A stretch of 41,578 nt of DNA. Source: Deltaproteobacteria bacterium (lineage in GTDB: Bacteria; Myxococcota_A; UBA9160; PR03). Shown one piece after another: positions 1 through 9,956 of the stretch; the stretch's first letter is position 1, and every line of letters starts with the position of its first letter. Where the stretch lies: positions 1 to 41,578 of the forward strand of contig JAPSFT010000031.1 of assembly GCA_035063765.1 (NCBI GenBank), read 5' to 3'. The position numbers were made by a program, and so were the translations under genes. The notes beneath the pieces were generated by a model. The model did no database searches. It saw nothing but the letters and a program-made list of their open reading frames with translations, and had not been told where the DNA came from.

Positions 1-45
1 CTACCTTGCCGCCCTCCCCGCCCCGCCGCCCCCGCGGCGACCTCA

Positions 46-121
46 GCCGACGTAGCTCAGCTGGTAGAGCAGCTGATTCGTAATCAGCAGGTCACCGGTT
101 CGAATCCGGTCGTCGGCTCCA
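46..121 (+). tRNA. tRNA-Thr (anticodon CGU)
   Basis: A full cloverleaf can be folded. The 7-bp acceptor stem pairs GCCGACG (46-52) with CGTCGGC (111-117). The D arm contains GCTCAGCTGGTAGAGC. The anticodon stem pairs GCTGA (72-76) with TCAGC (84-88) around loop TTCGTAA, giving anticodon CGT at 79-81, which reads ACG (Thr). The T arm contains GGTTCGAATCC. The discriminator is T118 and the CCA end is encoded (119-121). A block of lower GC starts just downstream, and tRNA 3' ends are common integration sites. I found no second copy of the tRNA 3' end at the far side of that block. Confidence 0.97.
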
Positions 122-333
122 CCACTTATCCGCCGAACCTGCGCATCGTCGAAACTGGCGGAAAGGGCGCGGAAAGGTGCGCGGGCGCGACACGCGCCAG
201 CGTTGCGCAGATTTCCGTACGCCCCTAACCTGCCCCCCAGCTCCCCCCGCCTTCCTGCCACAAGCCCGAACACGCCGCGAGCCGACGAGCGCGCCCACGC
301 GTGCCACGTCCGCTTCAGTCGAGGGACGGCACC

Positions 334-1149
334 GTGAAGAACTGGCTGAAGGACGCCGCGAACGTGGCGCCGCTGCTCCCGCCCAATCTCACCCTCGGTC
401 CGCTCTTGGCGGACGGCGGACAAGGCGTCGTCTACAGCGGGACCGCGAACGGCGCGCCCGCGGCGATCAAGCTCTACGTGCCGGGCCAGGTCGAGAAGCG
501 AATCGAGCGAGAGGTCGCCGCGCTCCACGAGCTGGCCTGCCCCTCGATCGTCCGTCCCCTCTGGCACGGGATCGTGCAGGCGCAGGGACAGGACCTCCAC
601 GTCGTCGCGACCGAGTTCGTCCACGGGGCGCCGCTTCACGACGTGCTGGCAGGCGAGCGCGCGCTCGGTGGCGGCGAACTCGGCGTCCTCTGCTTCGACG
701 TCGCGGAGGCGATCGGCGCCATGTGGAAGAGGCGGATCGTCCACCGCGACCTGAAGCCAGGCAACATCCTCCTGCGCCAGAACGGGCGGGCCTGCGTGAT
801 CGACCTCGGGCTCGCGCGGCACCTGGACGAGTCCTCGCTCACCGCCGCCGGGATGACCTGGGGGACGCGCGGCTACCTCTCCCCCGAGCAGGCGCAGTGC
901 GCCAAGGCCCTCTCCTGCAAGTCAGACGTCTTCGCGCTGGGCGTCGTGCTCCTCGAGGCTGCGTCGGGAACGCACCCCACCGGTCGCGATCAGAACCGAC
1001 TTCTCGCCCAGCCCTTCCACCAGACCCTCGTCCCAGCCCTCGCCGCGTGGGCCCACGCGGACCTGGTCCGCCGCATGCTCGACCCCGATCCGTACCGTCG
1101 GCCCTTGCCGCCGGCGATCCTCACCGCACTCGCGGCATTCCACCCCTAG
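334..1149 (+). CDS. Stand-alone eukaryotic-like Ser/Thr protein kinase
   Basis: A 271-aa protein that is only a kinase domain, with no transmembrane segment, PASTA or other sensor domain, so it is probably cytosolic. Visible motifs are the Gly-rich loop GGQGVVY (28-34), the ATP-binding Lys of AAIK (K46), an alpha-C Glu near E60, the catalytic loop HRDLKPGN (137-144; D139, K141, N144), DLG in place of DFG (157-159) and SPE in place of APE (183-185). All core catalytic residues are present, so it should be active. The GTG at 334 is preferred to a GTG at 301 because GAGGGA lies 7 bp upstream of it. It ends 17 bp before the next gene, which has a strong ribosome site, so the two probably form an operon. 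The next protein is a likely partner or substrate (inference). Confidence 0.9.
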   Translation: MKNWLKDAANVAPLLPPNLTLGPLLADGGQGVVYSGTANGAPAAIKLYVPGQVEKRIEREVAALHELACPSIVRPLWHGIVQAQGQDLHVVATEFVHGAPLHDVLAGERALGGGELGVLCFDVAEAIGAMWKRRIVHRDLKPGNILLRQNGRACVIDLGLARHLDESSLTAAGMTWGTRGYLSPEQAQCAKALSCKSDVFALGVVLLEAASGTHPTGRDQNRLLAQPFHQTLVPALAAWAHADLVRRMLDPDPYRRPLPPAILTALAAFHP

Positions 1150-1166
1150 GAGAGGAGGAACGTCCC

Positions 1167-2465
1167 TTGTTCTTTGTCAACGTCGGATACCGGTTCGCGC
1201 TCGACCCGTCCGTCACGCCCGACGGAGGCTTGATCCTTTGCAGCGCGATGCCCCGCCACCAGCTCGAACGACGCAAGCTCCGACGCTACCCGTATCTCGA
1301 GCAGCGCCTGTTCGATCCGCAGCTCTACCTCTCCGGGCTCGACGCCACGAGGGCGACGGATCACTGCGCCAAGCTCGCGACGTACCCCTGGTTCGGTGTG
1401 GCTGACCTTCCCGCGTTCGACAGTGGCCAGCACCGGCAATCGCAATGGATGGAGACCGCGCGCCAGAGGATCCGACGGATCTGGCCGGGCACGTTGCCCG
1501 GCGATCCGCAGGCCATCGAGGCCGGCGTGCGCGAATGCATCGACTTCCAGGTCCGACTGGACACCTGGGCAGTCATCCTCCCGAGCCCCCTCACCGTCGA
1601 CTTCACGTCGGATTACTCCGCGGAACTCGAGTGGCTCGACGCCGGACTGAGGCACCTAGAGTTCCTCGAAGGCGTCGACGCCCCGATCTACGCGACGGTG
1701 GCGATTTCCGATCGCGCACTGGTGTTCGCTGACCCGTCGAAGAATCCTATCCTGGGCCTCCTATTGGACCAGGTGAGCGCGCGCGAGGTCAACGGGATCT
1801 ACCTGGTCCTCGAGCAAAGCGGCGAAGACCCCAACGCCCGCCAGTGCGGCAGCTCTCGCACTCTCCGATCGTTGCTTTACCTCGTCCACCGATTCGCGAA
1901 CGATTGCAACCTCCAAGTCGGGGTGAACTTCGTCGGAGCCTTCGCGCTGGCGTGTAGGGCAGCCGGTGCCTCGTGGTGGGCGAGCAACTGGTACAAGAGC
2001 CTCCACCGCTTGCGCCTGGGGGATACGGTGGCGGGCGGTGCGGTGTACCCGCTCTACTGGAGCCAGCCTTCCGCCCTGGACGTGAACCTTGAGGCGGACT
2101 TCGACGCATTGGCGAAGGCCGACCTCTCCAGGATCGCCGACCCTACACCCGCCTGCGGCGGCCTACTCGCCGCGGCAGCCCAAGGCGTCGCCTCGAACAC
2201 GCTGCCCGACTGGCGGTACGCCAAGTCCAACGCGACGGCTGCGATCACTCACTTCCTCCAATCAGCCGTACAGATGGACGCGAGGCTCACCGCGCTCGGC
2301 GTCGGAACTGCCCAGCTCGCCCACGTCGAAGCATGGCTCCGCGACGCGGAGGCGACGGCCGCCTGGGCGGGAACGACTCTCCCGGCGGGCGCGAAGACGA
2401 GGCTCTCCCACGTCTCGGAATGGTTCGAGGCCTTCAGCGGCTACCGCTTGAGCCACAAGGTTTGA
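1167..2465 (+). CDS. Unrecognised 432-aa protein paired with the kinase
   Basis: No family is recognised. A TTG start at 1167 is chosen because GAGGAGG (1152-1158) sits 8 bp before it and the frame continues to the TGA at 2463. The protein is soluble, with no signal peptide or membrane helix. It shows alternating hydrophobic strand-like stretches (TWAVILPSPLTVDF, APIYATVAIS, NGIYLVLEQ, NLQVGVNFVGAFAL) separated by helical segments. That rhythm could fit an alpha/beta or TIM-barrel-like fold, but this is only an impression. The last 100 residues are alanine-rich and helical. It follows the kinase gene by 17 bp and overlaps the 3' end of the convergent gene by 25 bp. Codon use is less GC-biased than in the metabolic genes to the right. 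Confidence 0.8.
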   Translation: MFFVNVGYRFALDPSVTPDGGLILCSAMPRHQLERRKLRRYPYLEQRLFDPQLYLSGLDATRATDHCAKLATYPWFGVADLPAFDSGQHRQSQWMETARQRIRRIWPGTLPGDPQAIEAGVRECIDFQVRLDTWAVILPSPLTVDFTSDYSAELEWLDAGLRHLEFLEGVDAPIYATVAISDRALVFADPSKNPILGLLLDQVSAREVNGIYLVLEQSGEDPNARQCGSSRTLRSLLYLVHRFANDCNLQVGVNFVGAFALACRAAGASWWASNWYKSLHRLRLGDTVAGGAVYPLYWSQPSALDVNLEADFDALAKADLSRIADPTPACGGLLAAAAQGVASNTLPDWRYAKSNATAAITHFLQSAVQMDARLTALGVGTAQLAHVEAWLRDAEATAAWAGTTLPAGAKTRLSHVSEWFEAFSGYRLSHKV

Positions 2466-3154
2466 GGGCCGGGAGCCGCCGCCGAGGAGACCAGATAGTC
2501 CCACTGCGGATCCGCCCTTCGGCTCGATCGCCGAGGCGGGACCAGGCATTCGACCGTCCCCGAACGGACGGTGAGCAGCCCGACTCCGCGCTCCCGGAAG
2601 GCCGCTAGCGCCTCCGGCGTGCTGGGCGCTCCGGCCGCGTCCATCGCTACTAGAACGCGGTTTGCGAAGGTCGCGTATGAACTCGCCTGCTCAAGGGCCT
2701 CCCGCCACCGGCGGAGCTTCGCCTCGACCGCGACGACCTCGGCGTCGCTCTCCGCGAGGGACGGCGAGAGCGAGACCGCTCCCGACTCGGCCTGGCAGAT
2801 CGCTCCCGAGGCGAGCAGGTCGTCCAGGACAGGACGGATCCGGTCGAGCGGAGCGAATGCCTTGGCCGCGATCGTCTCCGGACGGAGCCGCCCGTGCCGC
2901 CGGAGCATCGACACGACGTAGGCGTGCCGGTACGTGCGCCGCCGCGGCCAGACGTCCAGGCACGGCTCCCCGGCGAAGCCCACGACGACGAGGTCGGGAA
3001 TGCATCCTCCGACGGGCACCTCGCGCCTGGCGAGCACGCGATCGAAGCCACCAAACCCGATCTCATCGAGCGCGGCGCCCAGCACCTCCGGACTCGCGAG
3101 TGCCCCCTGAAGGTCGGCCTCGCGCTCGAAGCCCGCGGACGGTCGATCGGCCAT
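2441..3154 (-). CDS. Winged-helix protein with PD-(D/E)XK nuclease-like residues
   Basis: A 237-aa soluble protein. An N-terminal FEREADL (E12), then CIPDLVV (D54), then VAVEAK (E144, K146) and EQASSY (Q156) follow the spacing of a PD-(D/E)XK nuclease core. Between D54 and E144, residues about 75-130 read like an inserted winged helix-turn-helix (YVVSMLRRHGRLRPETIAAK and a following DDLLASGAI). The closing GVGLLTV strand is common in such nuclease-like proteins. The ATG at 3154 has GGGAG 5 bp upstream and is preferred to an upstream GTG at 3208. Its 3' end overlaps the convergent 432-aa gene. Nuclease activity is inferred from residues; it could instead be a DNA-binding regulator with a dead nuclease fold. 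Confidence 0.7.
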   Translation of the reverse strand: MADRPSAGFEREADLQGALASPEVLGAALDEIGFGGFDRVLARREVPVGGCIPDLVVVGFAGEPCLDVWPRRRTYRHAYVVSMLRRHGRLRPETIAAKAFAPLDRIRPVLDDLLASGAICQAESGAVSLSPSLAESDAEVVAVEAKLRRWREALEQASSYATFANRVLVAMDAAGAPSTPEALAAFRERGVGLLTVRSGTVECLVPPRRSSRRADPQWDYLVSSAAAPGPQTLWLKR

Positions 3155-3209
3155 GCCCGCTCCCGCCAACGGATGGTCGCATCGGAGGGGGCCTCGCACG
3201 GCGCGCACG

Positions 3210-4058
3210 CTAGAGGATCCAGCGCGGCGCCGCGAGCGTCGCTTCTGCGGCTCGCAGGATTGCGTTGAGTGCCACCCTCCAGTCTACCTCGAGGTCGTAG
3301 TGGTTTCCGTCCTCGTCGTAGTCCTCGATCTCACCGGGTCCGTCCCACTCGCCCTCGAAGTAGACCGTCCTGCCGTCCTCTAGCTCCAGATATCCCTCGA
3401 CCTCGCCGTCGCCTGACTTCTCGACGGTGCCGCTCACGTAGTCGCCGCTGTCCGACGTCCCCGAGACGTCGTACTCGCGGCCTTCTCCAGTCCCGAGCCA
3501 AACCGGGGGCATCGTGGGCGCCCGGTAGGTCGGCAACTGCGGATCGGCCGCGAAGGAGAAGCAAGCGTTCCCGAGCCGAATGAACCCGGGCTTGCATACG
3601 CAGCCACGCCCTAAGGTGTCGAGCTGCGCGTTCGGCGGGATTGTCACTGGCAGGCAGCGATCGCCTTCACGTACGAAGCCTCGAGCGCAAGTCCAACCGT
3701 TGCCGAACAGGCGGGGCCGCGCATTAGCGGGCACTTCCACCCGTTGGCACCCGTCGCCTGATAGGTAGTAACCCCAGTTGCAAACCCAGCCGTTACCGAT
3801 CGGGTTCAAGCTGGCATTTTCGGGAACGCTGATCGGCTCGCAGACATCGGCGGCGCGCTGGAAGCCCCAGTCACACTCCCAACCGCCCCCGAGCGTCGGA
3901 TGCGCGTTGGGCGGAGGCTCCGCTGGCGCCTCGTAGGACCGCAGGAGTTCTTCGACGGAATCGACTGCGTCGGAATCGTTTGCGGGGGCCCAGGCAGAGA
4001 GGATCCCCGCACCGAGGACAGCCCACGTCGACCAGCGCCGGACGGTTGACGCCCGCAT
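3210..4058 (-). CDS. Secreted protein with four Cys-rich repeats and an acidic tail
   Basis: 282 aa from an ATG at 4058 with GGGGAGG about 9 bp upstream; an ATG at 4097 is also in frame but less well placed. It starts with a Sec-type signal peptide (RRW, then AVLGAGILSAWA). Four repeats of about 32 residues follow, each of the form (V/I)P-x-NA-x6-G-x-GW-x-C-x2-G(F/Y)-x7-C, the last with GRGCVC instead of GW-x-C. A strongly acidic, probably beta-rich C-terminal region follows, with many D, E and G residues. Similar VPENA-type repeats occur in exported bacterial proteins of unknown role. Paired cysteines suggest disulfides outside the cytoplasm. No catalytic motif is visible. Confidence 0.8.
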   Translation of the reverse strand: MRASTVRRWSTWAVLGAGILSAWAPANDSDAVDSVEELLRSYEAPAEPPPNAHPTLGGGWECDWGFQRAADVCEPISVPENASLNPIGNGWVCNWGYYLSGDGCQRVEVPANARPRLFGNGWTCARGFVREGDRCLPVTIPPNAQLDTLGRGCVCKPGFIRLGNACFSFAADPQLPTYRAPTMPPVWLGTGEGREYDVSGTSDSGDYVSGTVEKSGDGEVEGYLELEDGRTVYFEGEWDGPGEIEDYDEDGNHYDLEVDWRVALNAILRAAEATLAAPRWIL

Positions 4059-4429
4059 CGCCCTTGCCTCCCCGCGCCCAAGCTTACTACCAGACACTGG
4101 AAAACGCCGATGCAGAAATCAGTCATCCCGCAGCCGGAACGCGGCGCAAGGAGGCCTTGAGCGTATAGGGACAGGAACTCGCAGACCGCTGCGGCTCGCC
4201 CGCCCAGGTCCTCGGCGATCCTCGCTCGGTCCTGCTCCGGGAAATCCGGGTGGCGGAAATCGATCTCGTCGCGGACCAGCGCCCGCATGACCGCCGGGTC
4301 CGACGAGCCCTGGCCGGCCGCCCGTAGTGCCAGAACCGCCTCGTAGAACCGGCCCAAATCGGTCGGATAGTCCTCGTACCATTCGCTCTCGGATAGCCAA
4401 GCCTCGAACGCTCGATCGACGTCGTCCAC
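3806..4429 (-). CDS. Small acidic unknown protein with an implausible 3' extension
   Basis: A GTG at 4429 preceded by GAGGAGG at 8 bp opens a natural-looking acidic helical sequence (FEAWLSESEWYEDYPTDLG, then RFYEAVLALRAAG and IDFRHPDFPEQDRARIAEDL) for about 95 residues, down to roughly 4130. The open frame then runs on to 3806 but becomes low-complexity and overlaps the Cys-repeat gene by about 250 bp on the same strand. That tail is unlikely to be real. The other two minus frames stop at 4119 and 4123, so a single frameshift, real or a sequencing error, would end the protein there at about 100 aa. The family is not recognised. It lies 20 bp downstream of the chimeric ORF and may have shared an operon with that ORF's donor gene. 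Confidence 0.45.
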   Translation of the reverse strand: MDDVDRAFEAWLSESEWYEDYPTDLGRFYEAVLALRAAGQGSSDPAVMRALVRDEIDFRHPDFPEQDRARIAEDLGGRAAAVCEFLSLYAQGLLAPRSGCGMTDFCIGVFQCLVVSLGAGRQGRCGRQPSGAGRRGLSSVRGSSLPGPPQTIPTQSIPSKNSCGPTRRQRSLRPTRIRRSGAVGSVTGASSAPPMSASRSAFPKMPA

Positions 4430-4449
4430 AAGTGAGTCCTCCTCGGGGG

Positions 4450-4764
4450 CTACCACCTGAAGTTCACTACTTGGGAAATGCGCTCGCCGCTGCTCGCGAT
4501 GATTCCGCTGGGCCGAGGGTGGGCAACTGCCCGCCGCCATTCCTCGTCCGAGAACAGCTCCAGGAGGTTCGACGGGATCGGCCCGCCGGCGAGCCACAGG
4601 ACGAAGCGGAACCCATAGAACTCGAAGCAGGTCGCCACGACCTGATCGGATACGGTGACCTTGTGGTAGAGGCCGTCCTCGTCGAAGTAGGCGGCGAGCT
4701 CGTCGGCGTCGAGACGCGACCAGGCGGCGATGAACTCGCGGATCACCTGCTCGTTGCGCTGCAT
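4450..4764 (-). CDS. Chimeric ORF: SnoaL/epoxide-hydrolase-like N-terminus fused to foreign C-terminus
   Basis: 104 aa from an ATG at 4764 with AGGAGG 5 bp upstream. Residues 1-34 (NEQVIREFIAAWSRLDADEL ending in DEDGLYH) match the start of the SnoaL-like/limonene-1,2-epoxide hydrolase cone fold, which normally continues to about 120-150 residues with a predictable pattern. From K35 (nucleotide about 4662) the protein changes to an unrelated sequence (CFEFYGFRFVLWLAGG, SNLLELFSDEEWRRAVAH) that looks like the C-terminus of another protein and is encoded in lower-GC DNA. The hydrolase half is therefore broken and probably inactive. It is the last gene of the long leftward catabolic operon, 47 bp after the truncated crotonase. 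Confidence 0.7.
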   Translation of the reverse strand: MQRNEQVIREFIAAWSRLDADELAAYFDEDGLYHKVTVSDQVVATCFEFYGFRFVLWLAGGPIPSNLLELFSDEEWRRAVAHPRPSGIIASSGERISQVVNFRW

Positions 4765-4811
4765 GGGAACCTCCTGGGTGGCGAGCGCCCGGTGGGTCGG
4801 GGCTCGAAGGG

Positions 4812-5453
4812 TCAGGGCTCGAAGAGGCGGGGCTGGTGGGCGAGGAAGCTGCGCTTGGCGGCCTCGGGGAGGCCGGCGGGGAGCGCGGCGATGCTCCGGG
4901 CCAGCTCGCGCGCGGCGCCGAGCAGCTCCGCGGGCTCGACGACGCGCCCGACGAGGCCGATCGCGAGCGCCTCGCGGGCGTCGTAGCTCCGCCCGGTGAG
5001 GCACATCTCGCGCGCCGCCCCGGTGCCCAGGACGTGGCGCATCAGCTCGTAGAGCGCGGGCGCGCCGAAGCGCACCTGCGGCTGGCCGAAGACGGCCGTC
5101 GTGGCCGCGAGGCGGAGGTCGCACAGGGCGGCGAGGTCGCAGCCGCCGCCGAGCGCGGGGCCGTTCACGGCCGCCACGAGCGGCTTCGCGAAGGTATAGA
5201 CGCGCCGGTGATAGGCGACGGCGCTGGCGAAGACCTCGACCATCCCGGCGCCGAGCTCGGAGCGGTCGAAGCCGGCGCAGAAGGCCGGCCCGGCGCCGGT
5301 CAGCACGACGGCGCGCACCGCGTCGCTCGCCTCGAGCGCGTCGAGGCGTTCGACGAGCTCCGCGCGCAGCGCCGCCGAGAGGGCGTTGCGCTTCTCGGGC
5401 CGGGCCAGGGTGAGGACGGCCACCCCACCCGACTCCTCCAGGGTCGTCAGCAC
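4812..5453 (-). CDS. Enoyl-CoA hydratase/isomerase family protein, C-terminally short
   Basis: 213 aa, about 45 shorter than a normal crotonase. The GTG start at 5453 follows an excellent GAGGAGGTGATC site. The crotonase core is clear: CoA/oxyanion segments FCAGFDRSEL and ALGGGCDLAALCDL. The two hydratase glutamates of the rat enzyme (E144 and E164) correspond to D in GGGCDLA and Q in FGQPQVRFG, so ordinary water addition is unlikely; isomerase, hydrolase or other crotonase chemistry is possible. The protein ends at AKRSFLAHQPRLFEP, so the C-terminal helical region used in trimer packing is missing. It is 11 bp downstream of the patatin gene in the leftward operon. Confidence 0.85.
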   Translation of the reverse strand: MLTTLEESGGVAVLTLARPEKRNALSAALRAELVERLDALEASDAVRAVVLTGAGPAFCAGFDRSELGAGMVEVFASAVAYHRRVYTFAKPLVAAVNGPALGGGCDLAALCDLRLAATTAVFGQPQVRFGAPALYELMRHVLGTGAAREMCLTGRSYDAREALAIGLVGRVVEPAELLGAARELARSIAALPAGLPEAAKRSFLAHQPRLFEP

Positions 5454-5464
5454 GGATCACCTCC

Positions 5465-6244
5465 TCACGGCTCCGGGGCCGCCCGGTCGCTCGGGAGCGC
5501 GCCGCTGGCAAGCCCGCGCGCGACGGCCCGGTGGCCGGCGTCGATGCAACGCAGGACGGCGTCGGTGCTCGCCGAGAGCCGGTCGATCGGCAGCGGCGCC
5601 GCGGGATGGAGGACCACCACGCGCTCGCGCTCGGCGGCGGCGAGCGCGTGGGGGCGGCGCGCCAGGAGGCGCTTGCGGATCCGCCCCTGCGGATCGGCCA
5701 CGACGACGAGTGCCCGCCGGCAGCCGGCCTCGAGCGCGGCCTCGTAGGGGACGTTGTCGACGAGGCCTCCGTCCGCGTAGTAGCGCCCGTCGATCCGCAC
5801 GGGGCGACCATACACGCCCGGCAGGTAGTTGGCCGCCATCAGGCTCGCGAGGAAGGCCTCGCGGTGCTCCCAGCGCTCGAAGAAGTGGAGGCGGCGCTCG
5901 CGCAGCGACGAGGCGCCGATCCGGAGCCGGATCCCCGAGCCCGCGAGGCGCTCGAAGCGGAGCGAGCGCATGGGGATCCGGCGCACGATCTCGGGGAAGT
6001 TCGACGGCGTGCCGTGACGCCAGAGGTTCCCGAGGCGCAGCTTCGGGGCGCGCGCCACCGCGAGCCAGAAGCGGCGCATCTCGCCGATCTGGCCGGTGGC
6101 CACGCAGGCGGCGTTCCAGGCGCCCGACGACACGCCGACCACGACGTCGAAGCGGAGGCCCTGCGCGTGCAGGGCCTCGATCACCCCGACCTGGAAGGCG
6201 CCGCGCAGGAAGCCGCCGGAGAGGACGAGCCCAAGGCCGCTCAC
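5465..6244 (-). CDS. Patatin-like phospholipase
   Basis: 259 aa. Patatins are Ser-Asp dyad lipid acyl hydrolases. The oxyanion-hole segment SGGFLRGAFQ lies near residues 9-18, the nucleophile elbow GVSSG at 37-41 (S39), and the catalytic DGG at 158-160 (D158) followed by LVDNVPYEAA. No signal peptide is seen, so it is probably cytosolic or peripherally membrane-bound. The start is the GTG at 6244, whose GTGA overlaps the stop of the upstream dehydrogenase gene by 4 bp, implying translational coupling. Within a CoA-based catabolic operon it could release acids from storage or membrane lipid esters (inference). Confidence 0.92.
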   Translation of the reverse strand: MSGLGLVLSGGFLRGAFQVGVIEALHAQGLRFDVVVGVSSGAWNAACVATGQIGEMRRFWLAVARAPKLRLGNLWRHGTPSNFPEIVRRIPMRSLRFERLAGSGIRLRIGASSLRERRLHFFERWEHREAFLASLMAANYLPGVYGRPVRIDGRYYADGGLVDNVPYEAALEAGCRRALVVVADPQGRIRKRLLARRPHALAAAERERVVVLHPAAPLPIDRLSASTDAVLRCIDAGHRAVARGLASGALPSDRAAPEP

Positions 6245-7344
6245 GCGGCCGGCTCGCCGAAGACCACCCGCGGGCGCACCGCGCGCCCGCTCGCGAGCGC
6301 CTCGAAGGCGTCGCCTGCGGCCTCGAGCGGGAAGTCGGGGCCCGCGATCTCCTCGAGACGGAGCGCGCCCGCGCGGGCGAGCGCGAAGAGCTCCGGGAAG
6401 TCGCGCGCCGGGTCCGCGGAGCCGTGGATCGAGCCGTGGAGCGACTTGTCGAGGAGGAGCGAGATCATGGGCACCCGGATCTCCTCGCGGAAGGAGGGGA
6501 GCCCGACCACGATGGCCCGGCCGCCGGGCGCCAGCGCGTCGAAGGCCTGGCGCGCCGCCGCGCCGGTACCGACCGCCTCGACGGCGAGGTCGACGCCGCC
6601 CCCGGTGCGCGCGTGGATCGCGGCCACCGGGTCGCCGTCCGCGGGCGCGAGGAGATCCGTCGCGCCGAGCTCGCCCGCGAGCGCGCGGCGCGCGGGATTC
6701 GGGTCGACCGCGAAGATCCGGGCGGCGCCCGCGATGCGCGCGCCCTGCACGGCCGAGAGGCCGACCCCGCCGCAGCCGAAGACGGCGACGCTCTCGCCCG
6801 CCTGCGCGCGGCCCGTGAGGACCGCGGCGCCGAAGCCCGTCACGACCCCGCAGCCGATCGAGCAGACCGAGCGGAGCGGGAGGTCGCCGGGCACCGGGAT
6901 CGCGGAGCGCTCGCCCACGACGACGCGCTCGCACAGGCCCGACACGCTCATGTAGCGGCCGAGCGGCCGGCCGCCGAGCGAGAGCGAGCCGTCGTCGCCG
7001 TGGGTGCGCATCGCCGCGCACAGGTGCGTGCGGCCCGCGCGGCAGGCCCGGCACTGCCCGCAGCGGGGGATCCAGGCGAGCACGACGGGCGTACCCGGCA
7101 CGAGCCGGGTGACACCGGACCCGGTCGCCTCGACCACCCCCGAGGCCTCGTGGCCGAGGACCGCCGGGAAGCCGATCCCCTCGCCCGTGCGCCACACGTG
7201 GAGGTCGCTCGCGCAGATCCCGCACGCGGCGATGCGCACGCGCACCTCCCCGGGCCCCGGGTCGCGGACCTGGACCTCCTCGATCCGCAGCGGCGCCCCG
7301 CGTCCGGGCGCCACGGCGGCGCGCGCCCGGACCCCGCCGCTCAC
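6241..7344 (-). CDS. Zinc-dependent alcohol dehydrogenase (MDR family)
   Basis: 367 aa, the usual length for medium-chain NAD(P)-dependent alcohol dehydrogenases. The catalytic zinc ligands fit CGICASD, GHEASG and the Cys of SIGCGVVTG. The structural zinc cluster is CGQCRACRAGRTHLC. The Rossmann loop is FGCGGVG followed by an Asp in FAVDPN, favouring NAD. It is coupled on both sides by 4-bp overlaps: GTG start at 7344 inside the upstream stop, and its own stop at 6241 inside the patatin start. It probably oxidises an alcohol intermediate of the same pathway as the preceding paralogue; the substrate is unknown. Confidence 0.93.
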   Translation of the reverse strand: MSGGVRARAAVAPGRGAPLRIEEVQVRDPGPGEVRVRIAACGICASDLHVWRTGEGIGFPAVLGHEASGVVEATGSGVTRLVPGTPVVLAWIPRCGQCRACRAGRTHLCAAMRTHGDDGSLSLGGRPLGRYMSVSGLCERVVVGERSAIPVPGDLPLRSVCSIGCGVVTGFGAAVLTGRAQAGESVAVFGCGGVGLSAVQGARIAGAARIFAVDPNPARRALAGELGATDLLAPADGDPVAAIHARTGGGVDLAVEAVGTGAAARQAFDALAPGGRAIVVGLPSFREEIRVPMISLLLDKSLHGSIHGSADPARDFPELFALARAGALRLEEIAGPDFPLEAAGDAFEALASGRAVRPRVVFGEPAA

Positions 7345-8381
7345 GCGGGCGCTCCGGGCAGGAGGGCGAGGCGCACGGGGTCCCCGCGGCGGCTCGCGAG
7401 GTCGTCGAGCGCCTCGCGGGCGCGCGCGAGCGGATAGCGCCCCGTGATCGAGCCGGAGAGGTCGAGGCGGCCCGAGGCGGCGAGCTCGACCACGCGCGCG
7501 AGCTCGGCGCGCGTGTAGCCCATCGAGCCCTGGACGCCGATCTCCTTGCCGACGAAGGAGACGAGCGGGCCGAGCGCGGGCGACTCCATGCCGACACCGC
7601 CCACCACCACGCGCCCGCCGCGCGCGACCGACGCCAGCGCGAGCTCGACGGACGCCTGGCGGCCCGCGTACTCGATCACGACCTCCGGTCCCTCGCCGCC
7701 CGCCGCCCGGCGGATCGCGCGGCGCGCGTCCGGCGCGCGCGCGTCCACGCCGGCGTCCGCGCCGGCGGCCGCGGCCCGCCGCAGCGCCCCTTCGCTCGCG
7801 TCCACGGCGACGACGGTCTTCGCGCCGAGGAGCCGGGCCAGGAGGATCGCGTGGTAGCCGACGCCGCCGCAGCCGATCACGGCCACCCGCTCGCCGCCCG
7901 CGACCCCGGCGCGGCTCACCACCGCGTGGTAGGCCGTGGCCACCGCGTCGGCGAGGATCGCGCCGTGCTCGAAGGAGACCTGCGCCGGGAGCGGGAGCAC
8001 GCACGCGGCGGGCACCGCGATCTTCTCCGCGAAGGTGCCGTCGCGCGCCATCCCGAAGATCCGGGCCTCGGGGCAGAGCCCGAGGTGGCCGGCCTCGCAG
8101 GCGGCGCAGGCGCCGCAGGTCTCGCTCGGGAGCAGGAGCACGCGCGCGCCCGGGGCCACGCCCGAGACCTCCGCCCCCACCGCTTCGACGACGCCCGCGC
8201 CCTCGTGGCCCATGACGACGGGCAGCGCGGGCACGGGCAGGCGGCCGTGCGCCGCGTGCAGATCGGTGCCGCACAGGCCCGCGGCGCGCACCGCCACGAG
8301 GAGCTGGCCGCGCCCGAGCGCGGGCTCCGGCACCTCCTCGACCTGCACCACCGGTCCCGCGTGGAGACGCACTGCCTGCAT
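7341..8381 (-). CDS. Zinc-dependent alcohol dehydrogenase (MDR family), second copy
   Basis: 346 aa. Catalytic zinc residues are in CGTDLHAAHG and GHEGAG; the structural zinc cluster is CGACAACEAGHLGLC; the nucleotide-binding loop is IGCGGVGYHA followed by VAVDAS. It is clearly diverged from the downstream dehydrogenase, so the two are not a recent duplication, and different substrates or consecutive steps are likely. The ATG at 8381 lies 15 bp after the acyl-CoA ligase gene, with only a weak purine-rich site. Its stop overlaps the next start by 4 bp. Confidence 0.93.
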   Translation of the reverse strand: MQAVRLHAGPVVQVEEVPEPALGRGQLLVAVRAAGLCGTDLHAAHGRLPVPALPVVMGHEGAGVVEAVGAEVSGVAPGARVLLLPSETCGACAACEAGHLGLCPEARIFGMARDGTFAEKIAVPAACVLPLPAQVSFEHGAILADAVATAYHAVVSRAGVAGGERVAVIGCGGVGYHAILLARLLGAKTVVAVDASEGALRRAAAAGADAGVDARAPDARRAIRRAAGGEGPEVVIEYAGRQASVELALASVARGGRVVVGGVGMESPALGPLVSFVGKEIGVQGSMGYTRAELARVVELAASGRLDLSGSITGRYPLARAREALDDLASRRGDPVRLALLPGAPA

Positions 8382-8396
8382 GCCCTGCCCCGCCTT

Positions 8397-9956
8397 TCAC
8401 TCGGCGCCGTGGACGCCGCTCGCCTCGCCCTTCCAGTAGGGCTCGCGCAGCGCGCGCCGCAGGATCTTCCCGACGCCGCTCTTCGGAAGCTCGGCCCGCA
8501 GCTCGATCGCCTTCGGCACCTTGAAACGCGCGAGGCGCGCCTTGCAGAAGGCGAGCAGCTCCTCGGGCGTCGCGCGCGCCGCGGGCCGGAGCGTCACGGC
8601 GGCGCGGATCGCCTCGCCCCACTTCGGGTCGGGGACCGCGAAGACGGCACACTCGGCCACGGCGGGGTGCTCGGCGAGCGCCGCCTCGACCTCGGCCGGA
8701 TAGACGTTGAAGCCGCCCGTGATGATCTTGTCCTCCTTGCGGTCGGCGAGGAAGACGTAGCCCGCTTCGTCCATGCGCCCGAGGTCGCCGGTGCGCAGCC
8801 AGCCGTCGGAGAGCCGCTCGCGGTCGAGGGCGGGGCGCTTCCAGAAGCCCGGCGTCGTCCAGGGCGCGCACACGCAGATCTCGCCCACCTCGCCGGGCGC
8901 GAGCGTGCGCCCGTCCTCGCTCCGGATCCGCACCTGCGCGAAGGCGCTGCATTCGCGCCCCACGGAGGCGAGCCGCTCGCCGCCCGCTTCGAGGGCGGCC
9001 AGGTGCTCGGCGGGGCCCATCCAGGTGTTGAGCCCGTAGGCCTCGGTCTGCCCGAAGCCCGTGTGGAGGACGGGCCCGAGGCGCTCGAGCGAGCGGCGCA
9101 CGAGCGCAGGCGAGGCGGGGGCCCCGGCATACACGACCGCGCGCAGGCTCGAGAGGTCCGCGCCCGGGGCGTCGGGGTGGTCGAGGAGCATCCGCAGCAG
9201 CGTCGGGATCGCGAGCACGAGCGTGACGCGGTGCTGCGCGATCGCGCCGAGCGTGGCCTTCGGGTCGGGGCCCGGGAGGATCACGAGCGTCGCGCCCGCG
9301 ATCCAGCAGGCGTCCATCGCGCGCCCGCCGAAGTGGCTGAGCGCGAGCTGGCCGAGCAGGCGATCCTCGGGCCCGATCGCGAAGAGGCCCGCCCAGGCCC
9401 CCATCGCCGCCGAGACGCTCGCGTAGCTGTGGGTGACGCCCTTCGGGTGTCCCGTCGTGCCGGAGGTGTAGAGGATCTGGGCGAGCGCGCCCGGCGCGCG
9501 GTCGATCGCGAGCGGCTCGGCGGACTCGCGATCGGCGAGCGCGGCGAGGTCGCCGGCGCCCTCGCCCGCTCCGAGCGCGAGCACGGCGGCCCGCGCGCCG
9601 GCCGCCTGGCGCGCGCGCGCGATCGCCCCGGCGTCGAGCGCGACGACGAAGCGCGCCTCGGCGTCCTCCACCAGGAAGGCGTGCTCGGGGCCCGTGAGGG
9701 CGCCGAGGAGCGGCACGAGCACGCCGCCCGCGCGCGCGACGGCGATCACCGTCTCGACGTACTCGATCCGGTTCTCCTGCAGGACGGCGACCCGCTCGCC
9801 CGGCCCGAGGCCGAGGCGGACGAGCGCCCGCGCCAGGCGCGTCGCGCGCTCGTCGAGCTCGCGGTAGCTCCGCCGGCGCTCGCCGTCCACGAGCGCCGTG
9901 CGCTCGGGCCAGCGCTGCGCGGCGCGCGCCGGGTAGTGCGCGTAGGGATGGATCAC
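8397..9956 (-). CDS. AMP-forming acyl-CoA synthetase (ligase)
   Basis: 519 aa, full length for the adenylate-forming ANL superfamily. Visible motifs are the P-loop YTSGTTGHPKG, the A5-type TGFGQTEAYG, DGWLRTGDLG for ribose binding, the hinge region after LADRKEDKI, and the C-terminal catalytic Lys in PKSGVGKILRR. The enzyme activates a carboxylic acid with ATP and CoA through an acyl-AMP and would supply the CoA ester for the dehydrogenase, hydratase and thiolase genes of this operon. The GTG start at 9956 overlaps the upstream stop by 4 bp (GTGA). The acyl substrate cannot be deduced. Confidence 0.93.
   Translation of the reverse strand: MIHPYAHYPARAAQRWPERTALVDGERRRSYRELDERATRLARALVRLGLGPGERVAVLQENRIEYVETVIAVARAGGVLVPLLGALTGPEHAFLVEDAEARFVVALDAGAIARARQAAGARAAVLALGAGEGAGDLAALADRESAEPLAIDRAPGALAQILYTSGTTGHPKGVTHSYASVSAAMGAWAGLFAIGPEDRLLGQLALSHFGGRAMDACWIAGATLVILPGPDPKATLGAIAQHRVTLVLAIPTLLRMLLDHPDAPGADLSSLRAVVYAGAPASPALVRRSLERLGPVLHTGFGQTEAYGLNTWMGPAEHLAALEAGGERLASVGRECSAFAQVRIRSEDGRTLAPGEVGEICVCAPWTTPGFWKRPALDRERLSDGWLRTGDLGRMDEAGYVFLADRKEDKIITGGFNVYPAEVEAALAEHPAVAECAVFAVPDPKWGEAIRAAVTLRPAARATPEELLAFCKARLARFKVPKAIELRAELPKSGVGKILRRALREPYWKGEASGVHGAE

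Follow-up and report, generated by a model that had tools for sequence, protein, structure and literature searches.

What do three small genes do together beside a tRNA gene, when one encodes a protein of no recognized family? The window, by which we mean the whole 41,578-bp stretch of DNA analyzed from a Deltaproteobacteria bacterium, carries such a trio near its start: a kinase gene (KIN), a gene for a 432-aa protein (X), and a convergent nuclease-like gene (NUC). The initial annotation had suggested that the three act together, possibly in defense or signaling. The features concerned are as follows.

46-121, + strand: tRNA-Thr (CGT), beside the module
334-1149, + strand: KIN, 271 aa, GTG start, with the RBS-like sequence GAGGGACGG at 321-329
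1167-2465, + strand: X, 432 aa, TTG start, with the strong RBS GGAGAGGAGG at 1149-1158
2441-3154, - strand: NUC, PD-(D/E)XK-type nuclease-like protein, 237 aa
2765-2941, - strand: winged-helix insert in NUC, approximate extent
2441-2465: convergent overlap of the X and NUC 3' ends, 25 bp

The described layout holds up at these coordinates, with the X start codon 17 bp past the KIN stop codon and the tRNA gene adjoining the module. The DNA is also lower in GC than the flanking metabolic genes, as had been claimed: GC is 0.69 for window positions 1-3154 versus 0.76 from 5.5 kb onward, and the GC3 of the module is 0.84-0.91 versus ~0.97 in the metabolic genes.

A profile search yielded 13 complete KIN-X-NUC cassettes, all three genes being adjacent at 13/13 of the first-collected loci with readable flanks. 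Their hosts are Myxococcota-like genomes, Acidobacteriota, the plasmids of four other bacteria, and one haloarchaeal plasmid. Because 13 complete cassettes are spread over two domains of life, a chance neighborhood of the three genes is ruled out. NUC adjoins X at every X locus with readable flanks (15/15), while KIN does so at 13 of the 15. The initial annotation had held that a joint function would be contradicted by X homologues occurring mostly without the kinase or nuclease gene; X was instead never found without NUC and rarely without KIN. Together with a gene fusion described below, the cassettes and these adjacencies make co-function of the trio well established. The distances between family members fit co-inheritance as well, since the matrices correlate as expected (X-NUC r 0.76, X-KIN r 0.83, NUC-KIN r 0.72; p 2e-4).

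The loci were reached by different routes, and the searches sampled each phylum rather than covering it exhaustively. Scanning a genome collection turned up an Acidobacteria contig (L009) that carries X and a convergent NUC but ends before the kinase side is reached; whole-genome searches then added the full trio of L011 (G341), and a profile search added L034 and L035. A broad X profile added four further genomes of the window's phylum, and an earlier profile added one further Acidobacteriota genome. The trio on an Arthrobacter conjugative plasmid was reached via its NUC homologue, and plasmid searches added Kineococcus, Kocuria, Polaromonas, and the haloarchaeon Natribaculum. Because NUC led to some of the plasmid loci, the X-based genome searches constitute the least biased set, and in these both partners lie beside every X with flanks. 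Four loci (L056, L057, L058, and L060) had been left out of profile building and were found all the same, with NUC E values of 1e-18 to 1e-29. At L059 only 213 bp of contig precede X, and the frame upstream closes with a stretch resembling a kinase tail. Matches in G215 and G218 (L012 and L013) did not recur with the broader profile and were taken as chance.

Two gene orders were found. KIN and X are followed by a convergent NUC in the window, L011, L042, L047, and L049, while L034, L035, L045, L048, L056, L057, L058, and L060 have a NUC-KIN-X operon, with overlapping gene ends in L034 and L035. L011, from a genome of the window's phylum (G341), has the full trio in the order and orientation of the window. 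The tail-to-tail overlap of X and NUC is the same 25 bp in L011 and L009, and is 4 bp on the Arthrobacter plasmid. In Kocuria, KIN and X are fused into one 696-aa protein, which suggests that these two proteins act together physically; the constant pairing of X with NUC suggests the same for that pair. The X gene of L011 contains an in-frame TAG (1720-1722) in an otherwise intact cassette, which may be a decayed copy, a sequencing error, or a case of recoding.

A reverse search with NUC uncovered two X+NUC loci lacking the kinase, L112 and L114, whose X proteins score 42 and 34 bits versus ≤1 bit for 400 shuffled controls, along with a lone NUC having neither X nor KIN (L113). L112 (G341:C1:13183000-13201000, 6527-9541) is a second, diverged X+NUC copy in G341, in which a gene for a DdrO/ClgR-like XRE-type HTH protein and a gene for an HExxH protein, the latter named from its motif and position only, precede the X-like gene and the convergent NUC. 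An Mrr-like nuclease gene, recognized by eye, lies upstream at 4532-5620. In L114 (G305; 6399-8202) the X-like and NUC genes are paired, with unknown neighboring genes upstream at 8147-9320. Since L112 and L114 pair X with NUC in the absence of a kinase, X and NUC form the constant core and KIN is its usual partner, probably a replaceable switch in a system whose core can be combined with something else.

The cassette is rare, being present in 6/379 genomes of the window's phylum (~1.6%), 3/184 genomes of one order, and 2/347 Acidobacteriota. Its distribution does not follow species: the window X shares 50% identity with an Acidobacteria protein but 18% with the copy carried by a member of its own family. 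A genome of the same genus (G061) lacks X; the stretches of G061 that were examined contain nothing corresponding to window 128-5516, but are conserved with the window from 5517 onward. KIN-X-NUC is a conserved three-gene module that has moved horizontally. Homologues of X or NUC were absent from the phage and viral-contig collections searched, indicating that carriage by sequenced phages is not common, and some of the plasmid searches were likewise negative.

The tRNA-Thr gene beside the module is itself an integration site. Contig C21 of the same genome (G000; 82,236 bp) has window 1-121 at its start and window 75-195 at its end. It is thus an integrative element of 82 kb whose att core, 47 bp long, is the 3' end of tRNA-Thr (window 75-121). 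An integrase-like gene, assigned from its sequence and a weak match (E 1.6e-6), lies next to the right end at 80683-81990 (- strand). As the window carries the uninterrupted, empty site, C21 is polymorphic or excising in the sequenced population. The module lies directly outside the attachment site, and it is not part of C21, which contains no X, NUC, or KIN.

Two further features lie downstream of the module. Window 3210-4097 (- strand) encodes a secreted-looking protein with several cysteine-containing repeats (of the N-A...G-x-G-W-x-C-x-x-G-F type) and weak EGF/TIL matches only. A segment of ~104 bp at window 4661-4764 (L040 5199-5302) is 87% identical to G046, a genome of another family, although DNA matches at that distance are otherwise mostly 65-75% alike; it has no Rfam match at the gathering threshold and is possibly an unrecognized RNA or regulatory element.

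The setting expected by the initial annotation, that of defense islands and mobile elements, recurs among the homologous cassettes. The G341 copy lies ~1.9 kb from a BREX set (BrxC, then PglXI, BrxHI, and PglZ), and the Natribaculum copy is near an Eco57I-type R-M enzyme. The G071 copy immediately follows a tail tape-measure gene and has the gene of a terminase small subunit upstream, the G058 copy is beside a phage-type integrase, and the Arthrobacter copy is beside the relaxase and coupling-protein genes of its conjugative plasmid. Within the stretches read, L034, L035, and L058 had no recognized defense gene, and an early guess that L036 4598-5026 encodes an integrase found no support. On the Natribaculum plasmid, a calcineurin-type phosphoesterase gene (L048 8845-9534) follows ~20 bp downstream of X and might encode a phosphatase that partners the kinase. 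Being rare, mobile, patchy, and adjacent to defense genes, the cassette carries the usual genomic signature of anti-phage defense. From this context we are fairly confident that the module is an anti-mobile-element, probably anti-phage, defense system. Since its genes travel together among distantly related hosts, often on plasmids, in or beside phage-like elements, or near known defense genes, the trio is probably an undescribed one.

The same context might be read as that of a kinase-controlled toxin or addiction module, in which X would inhibit NUC, a nuclease toxin, and KIN would be the regulator, the module serving mainly to maintain plasmids and integrative elements. The cassette is indeed frequent on plasmids and in mobile elements, its genes are coupled tail-to-tail or in operons, and the X-NUC pairing is tight even without KIN. 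However, toxin-antitoxin pairs are usually less elaborate than a set of three genes that includes two enzymes, and BREX and R-M neighbors fit defense better. We therefore consider this reading unlikely as the principal explanation, and maintenance and defense roles are in any case not exclusive.

We turn to the proteins themselves. The initial annotation had recognized KIN as a kinase domain with a complete active site and little else, and it is a stand-alone Hanks-type Ser/Thr kinase domain (Pkinase E 7e-32) in which all of the catalytic residues are found. K46, E60, H137-R138-D139, N144, and D157 are invariant in 13/13 relatives, as are the GT and PE of the activation segment, with variation confined to the residues that follow the DFG Asp. 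With this full catalytic set, KIN belongs to the Hanks-type Ser/Thr protein kinases. Its best 25 matches in PADLOC are all kinase entries, led by MAD6 (E 7e-44); the KIN domain is also similar to PD-T4-6 (E 3e-36).

For NUC, the initial annotation had pointed to D54, E144-x-K146, and Q156 in PD-(D/E)XK spacing. These residues are located where it placed them and, together with E45, are invariant in 14/14 homologues, so that the motif E...D...(D/E)xK...Q identifies NUC as a putative PD-(D/E)XK enzyme. The catalytic residues of both KIN (13/13) and NUC (14/14) are identical despite protein identities down to ~18-20%. No convincing entry for the window NUC was found in PADLOC, Pfam, NCBIfam, or PHROGs, no Pfam family was found for the NUC members, and none of them matched NERD (PF08378). 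An AlphaFold (AF2) model built from a two-sequence input was poor (pLDDT 50.5); Foldseek with this model placed 3dnx of Silicibacter at rank 2 (E 0.04).

The winged helix said to be inserted in NUC is borne out by a profile of 14 members, in which the insert matches MarR-type winged-helix domains (best E 5e-4). This domain raises the prospect of a signaling or regulatory module, with NUC as a transcription factor whose winged helix sits on a PD-(D/E)XK scaffold and KIN and X tuning its DNA binding at stress or mobile-element genes. Such a role would also suit the annotation of the Kineococcus NUC as an Rrf2 regulator and the XRE-type HTH and HExxH proteins in place of KIN at L112. Nevertheless, the nuclease catalytic residues are invariant in all 14 homologues, and the NUC proteins of L045 and L056 lack the winged helix yet keep these residues, which argues that the helix is accessory and the catalytic core is not. 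We regard a purely regulatory module as improbable.

The claim that X belongs to no recognized family also stands, as the window X had no match in Pfam, NCBIfam, PADLOC, PHROGs, or PDB sequences. Only insignificant matches resulted when 15 X members were compared with Pfam and PADLOC and an X profile with PDB sequences. The conserved residues of X are D50-P51-Q52, P139, Y212, G267-A268, and H362. Both its alternating strands and helices and its ending (V-x-V-(G/N)...GA...ASG) recall TIM barrels. An AlphaFold model from a two-sequence input was of low confidence (pLDDT 42.6); TIM barrels dominate its Foldseek list, with no E below 0.08. Since the models were poor for both proteins (pLDDT 43 for X and 51 for NUC), the fold of X is read from weak signals, which hint at a weakly TIM-barrel-like protein. 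The initial annotation had named a clear housekeeping fold as evidence against its proposal, and none was matched by AlphaFold and Foldseek with these low-confidence models.

If X were a TIM-barrel enzyme of the TGT kind, it might mark DNA or RNA while NUC restricts unmarked DNA, much as in Dpd. This idea draws upon the TIM-barrel-type Foldseek matches, at E above 0.08, and upon a CxCxxC motif in four X members (L042, L047, L112, and L114), which lies 57-66 residues past the GA..xSG-type, last barrel-like motif and resembles the TGT zinc site, located 43 residues after TGT's own motif. However, most X members lack these cysteines, comparison of X with TGT and DpdA profiles gave no match (hhalign probability 0.5-8%; no Pfam TGT match; no match of PF23859 at the X loci), and no Dpd partner genes were seen beside X. 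The relationship of X to TGT, prompted by the cysteines of four members, is thus a lead only, and we judge a base- or RNA-modifying system to be highly improbable.

The reading we prefer, with a probability of roughly 0.6, is an undescribed defense module in which KIN is the switch, NUC the effector, and X the sensor or adaptor. X, alone or with KIN, would sense a signal of invasion through its TIM-barrel-like core, a possible binding site for a nucleotide or a modified base; a role as sensor/adaptor is likely. KIN would then phosphorylate X and/or NUC. The exchangeability of the kinase for another input module argues that KIN is a switch rather than an effector, and at L112 XRE-type HTH and HExxH-protein genes stand in its place. 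With its active site intact, NUC is the putative effector, a PD-(D/E)XK-fold enzyme that would cleave DNA of the invader or of the cell itself. In most versions the winged helix would steer NUC, and it may also repress the operon until activation. A bolder proposal, which we offer tentatively, is a new defense system common to bacteria and archaea, with an undescribed X-NUC sensor-effector core, an exchangeable trigger (mostly a kinase and once an XRE/HExxH-protease-like pair), and X as a new TIM-barrel-like family of invader sensors or base-recognizing proteins. Small intact cassettes in culturable bacteria (Arthrobacter FB24, Kineococcus radiotolerans, Polaromonas CJ2, and Kocuria) make the defense idea directly testable. 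If it is correct, the trio is an unlisted system in which phosphorylation controls a restriction-like nuclease via a family without a known member, and the swapping of KIN for another input module would show how defense effectors get rewired.

How, then, does such a kinase-controlled, restriction-like defense compare with known systems? Neither the window X nor the window NUC has an entry in PADLOC-DB, Pfam, or NCBIfam, and no three-gene system corresponding to the trio was recognized. The MAD6 kinase of MADS is the best PADLOC match of KIN, but KIN corresponds to only part of MAD6, has no other Mad gene beside it, and scores 96.7 bits against MAD6 where the NCBIfam cut-off is 460. PD-T4-6 and other single-kinase defense genes have a kinase domain similar to that of KIN. 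PD-T4-6 is a single-gene kinase system, however, whereas KIN has two partners that are nearly always there. The ImmA/IrrE-XRE switches of mobile elements resemble L112, where X and NUC have an XRE HTH and an HExxH protein upstream, but the window version has a kinase instead. Dpd and TGT (DpdA) are similar in placing a possible TIM-barrel enzyme beside a nuclease and in the CxCxxC of four X members; they differ in that their profiles have no significant match to X, and to our knowledge no kinase belongs to Dpd. The module is assigned to neither MADS nor Dpd. Nor is it a member of BREX, as no PADLOC family was matched by X or NUC, the best PADLOC matches of KIN are kinase entries, and a separate BREX set is found near the G341 copy only. 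The closest concept to the trio is the coupling of NERD nucleases with kinases, as PglW of BREX type 2 and some DndF variants combine a NERD-REase with Ser/Thr kinase domains (PMC12839542, PMC10853773). The papers located by word searches, which may have missed some, describe such couplings but no kinase-X-NUC trio. Within BREX, PglW combines its domains in a single large protein, whereas the trio consists of three small separate ones, and membership in the PglW type is not indicated, as NUC has no NERD match; X has no counterpart in either PglW or DndF, and the gene layout is different. What the trio would share with these systems is the coupling of an REase-fold nuclease, putative in the case of NUC, to a Hanks-type kinase in a defense setting.
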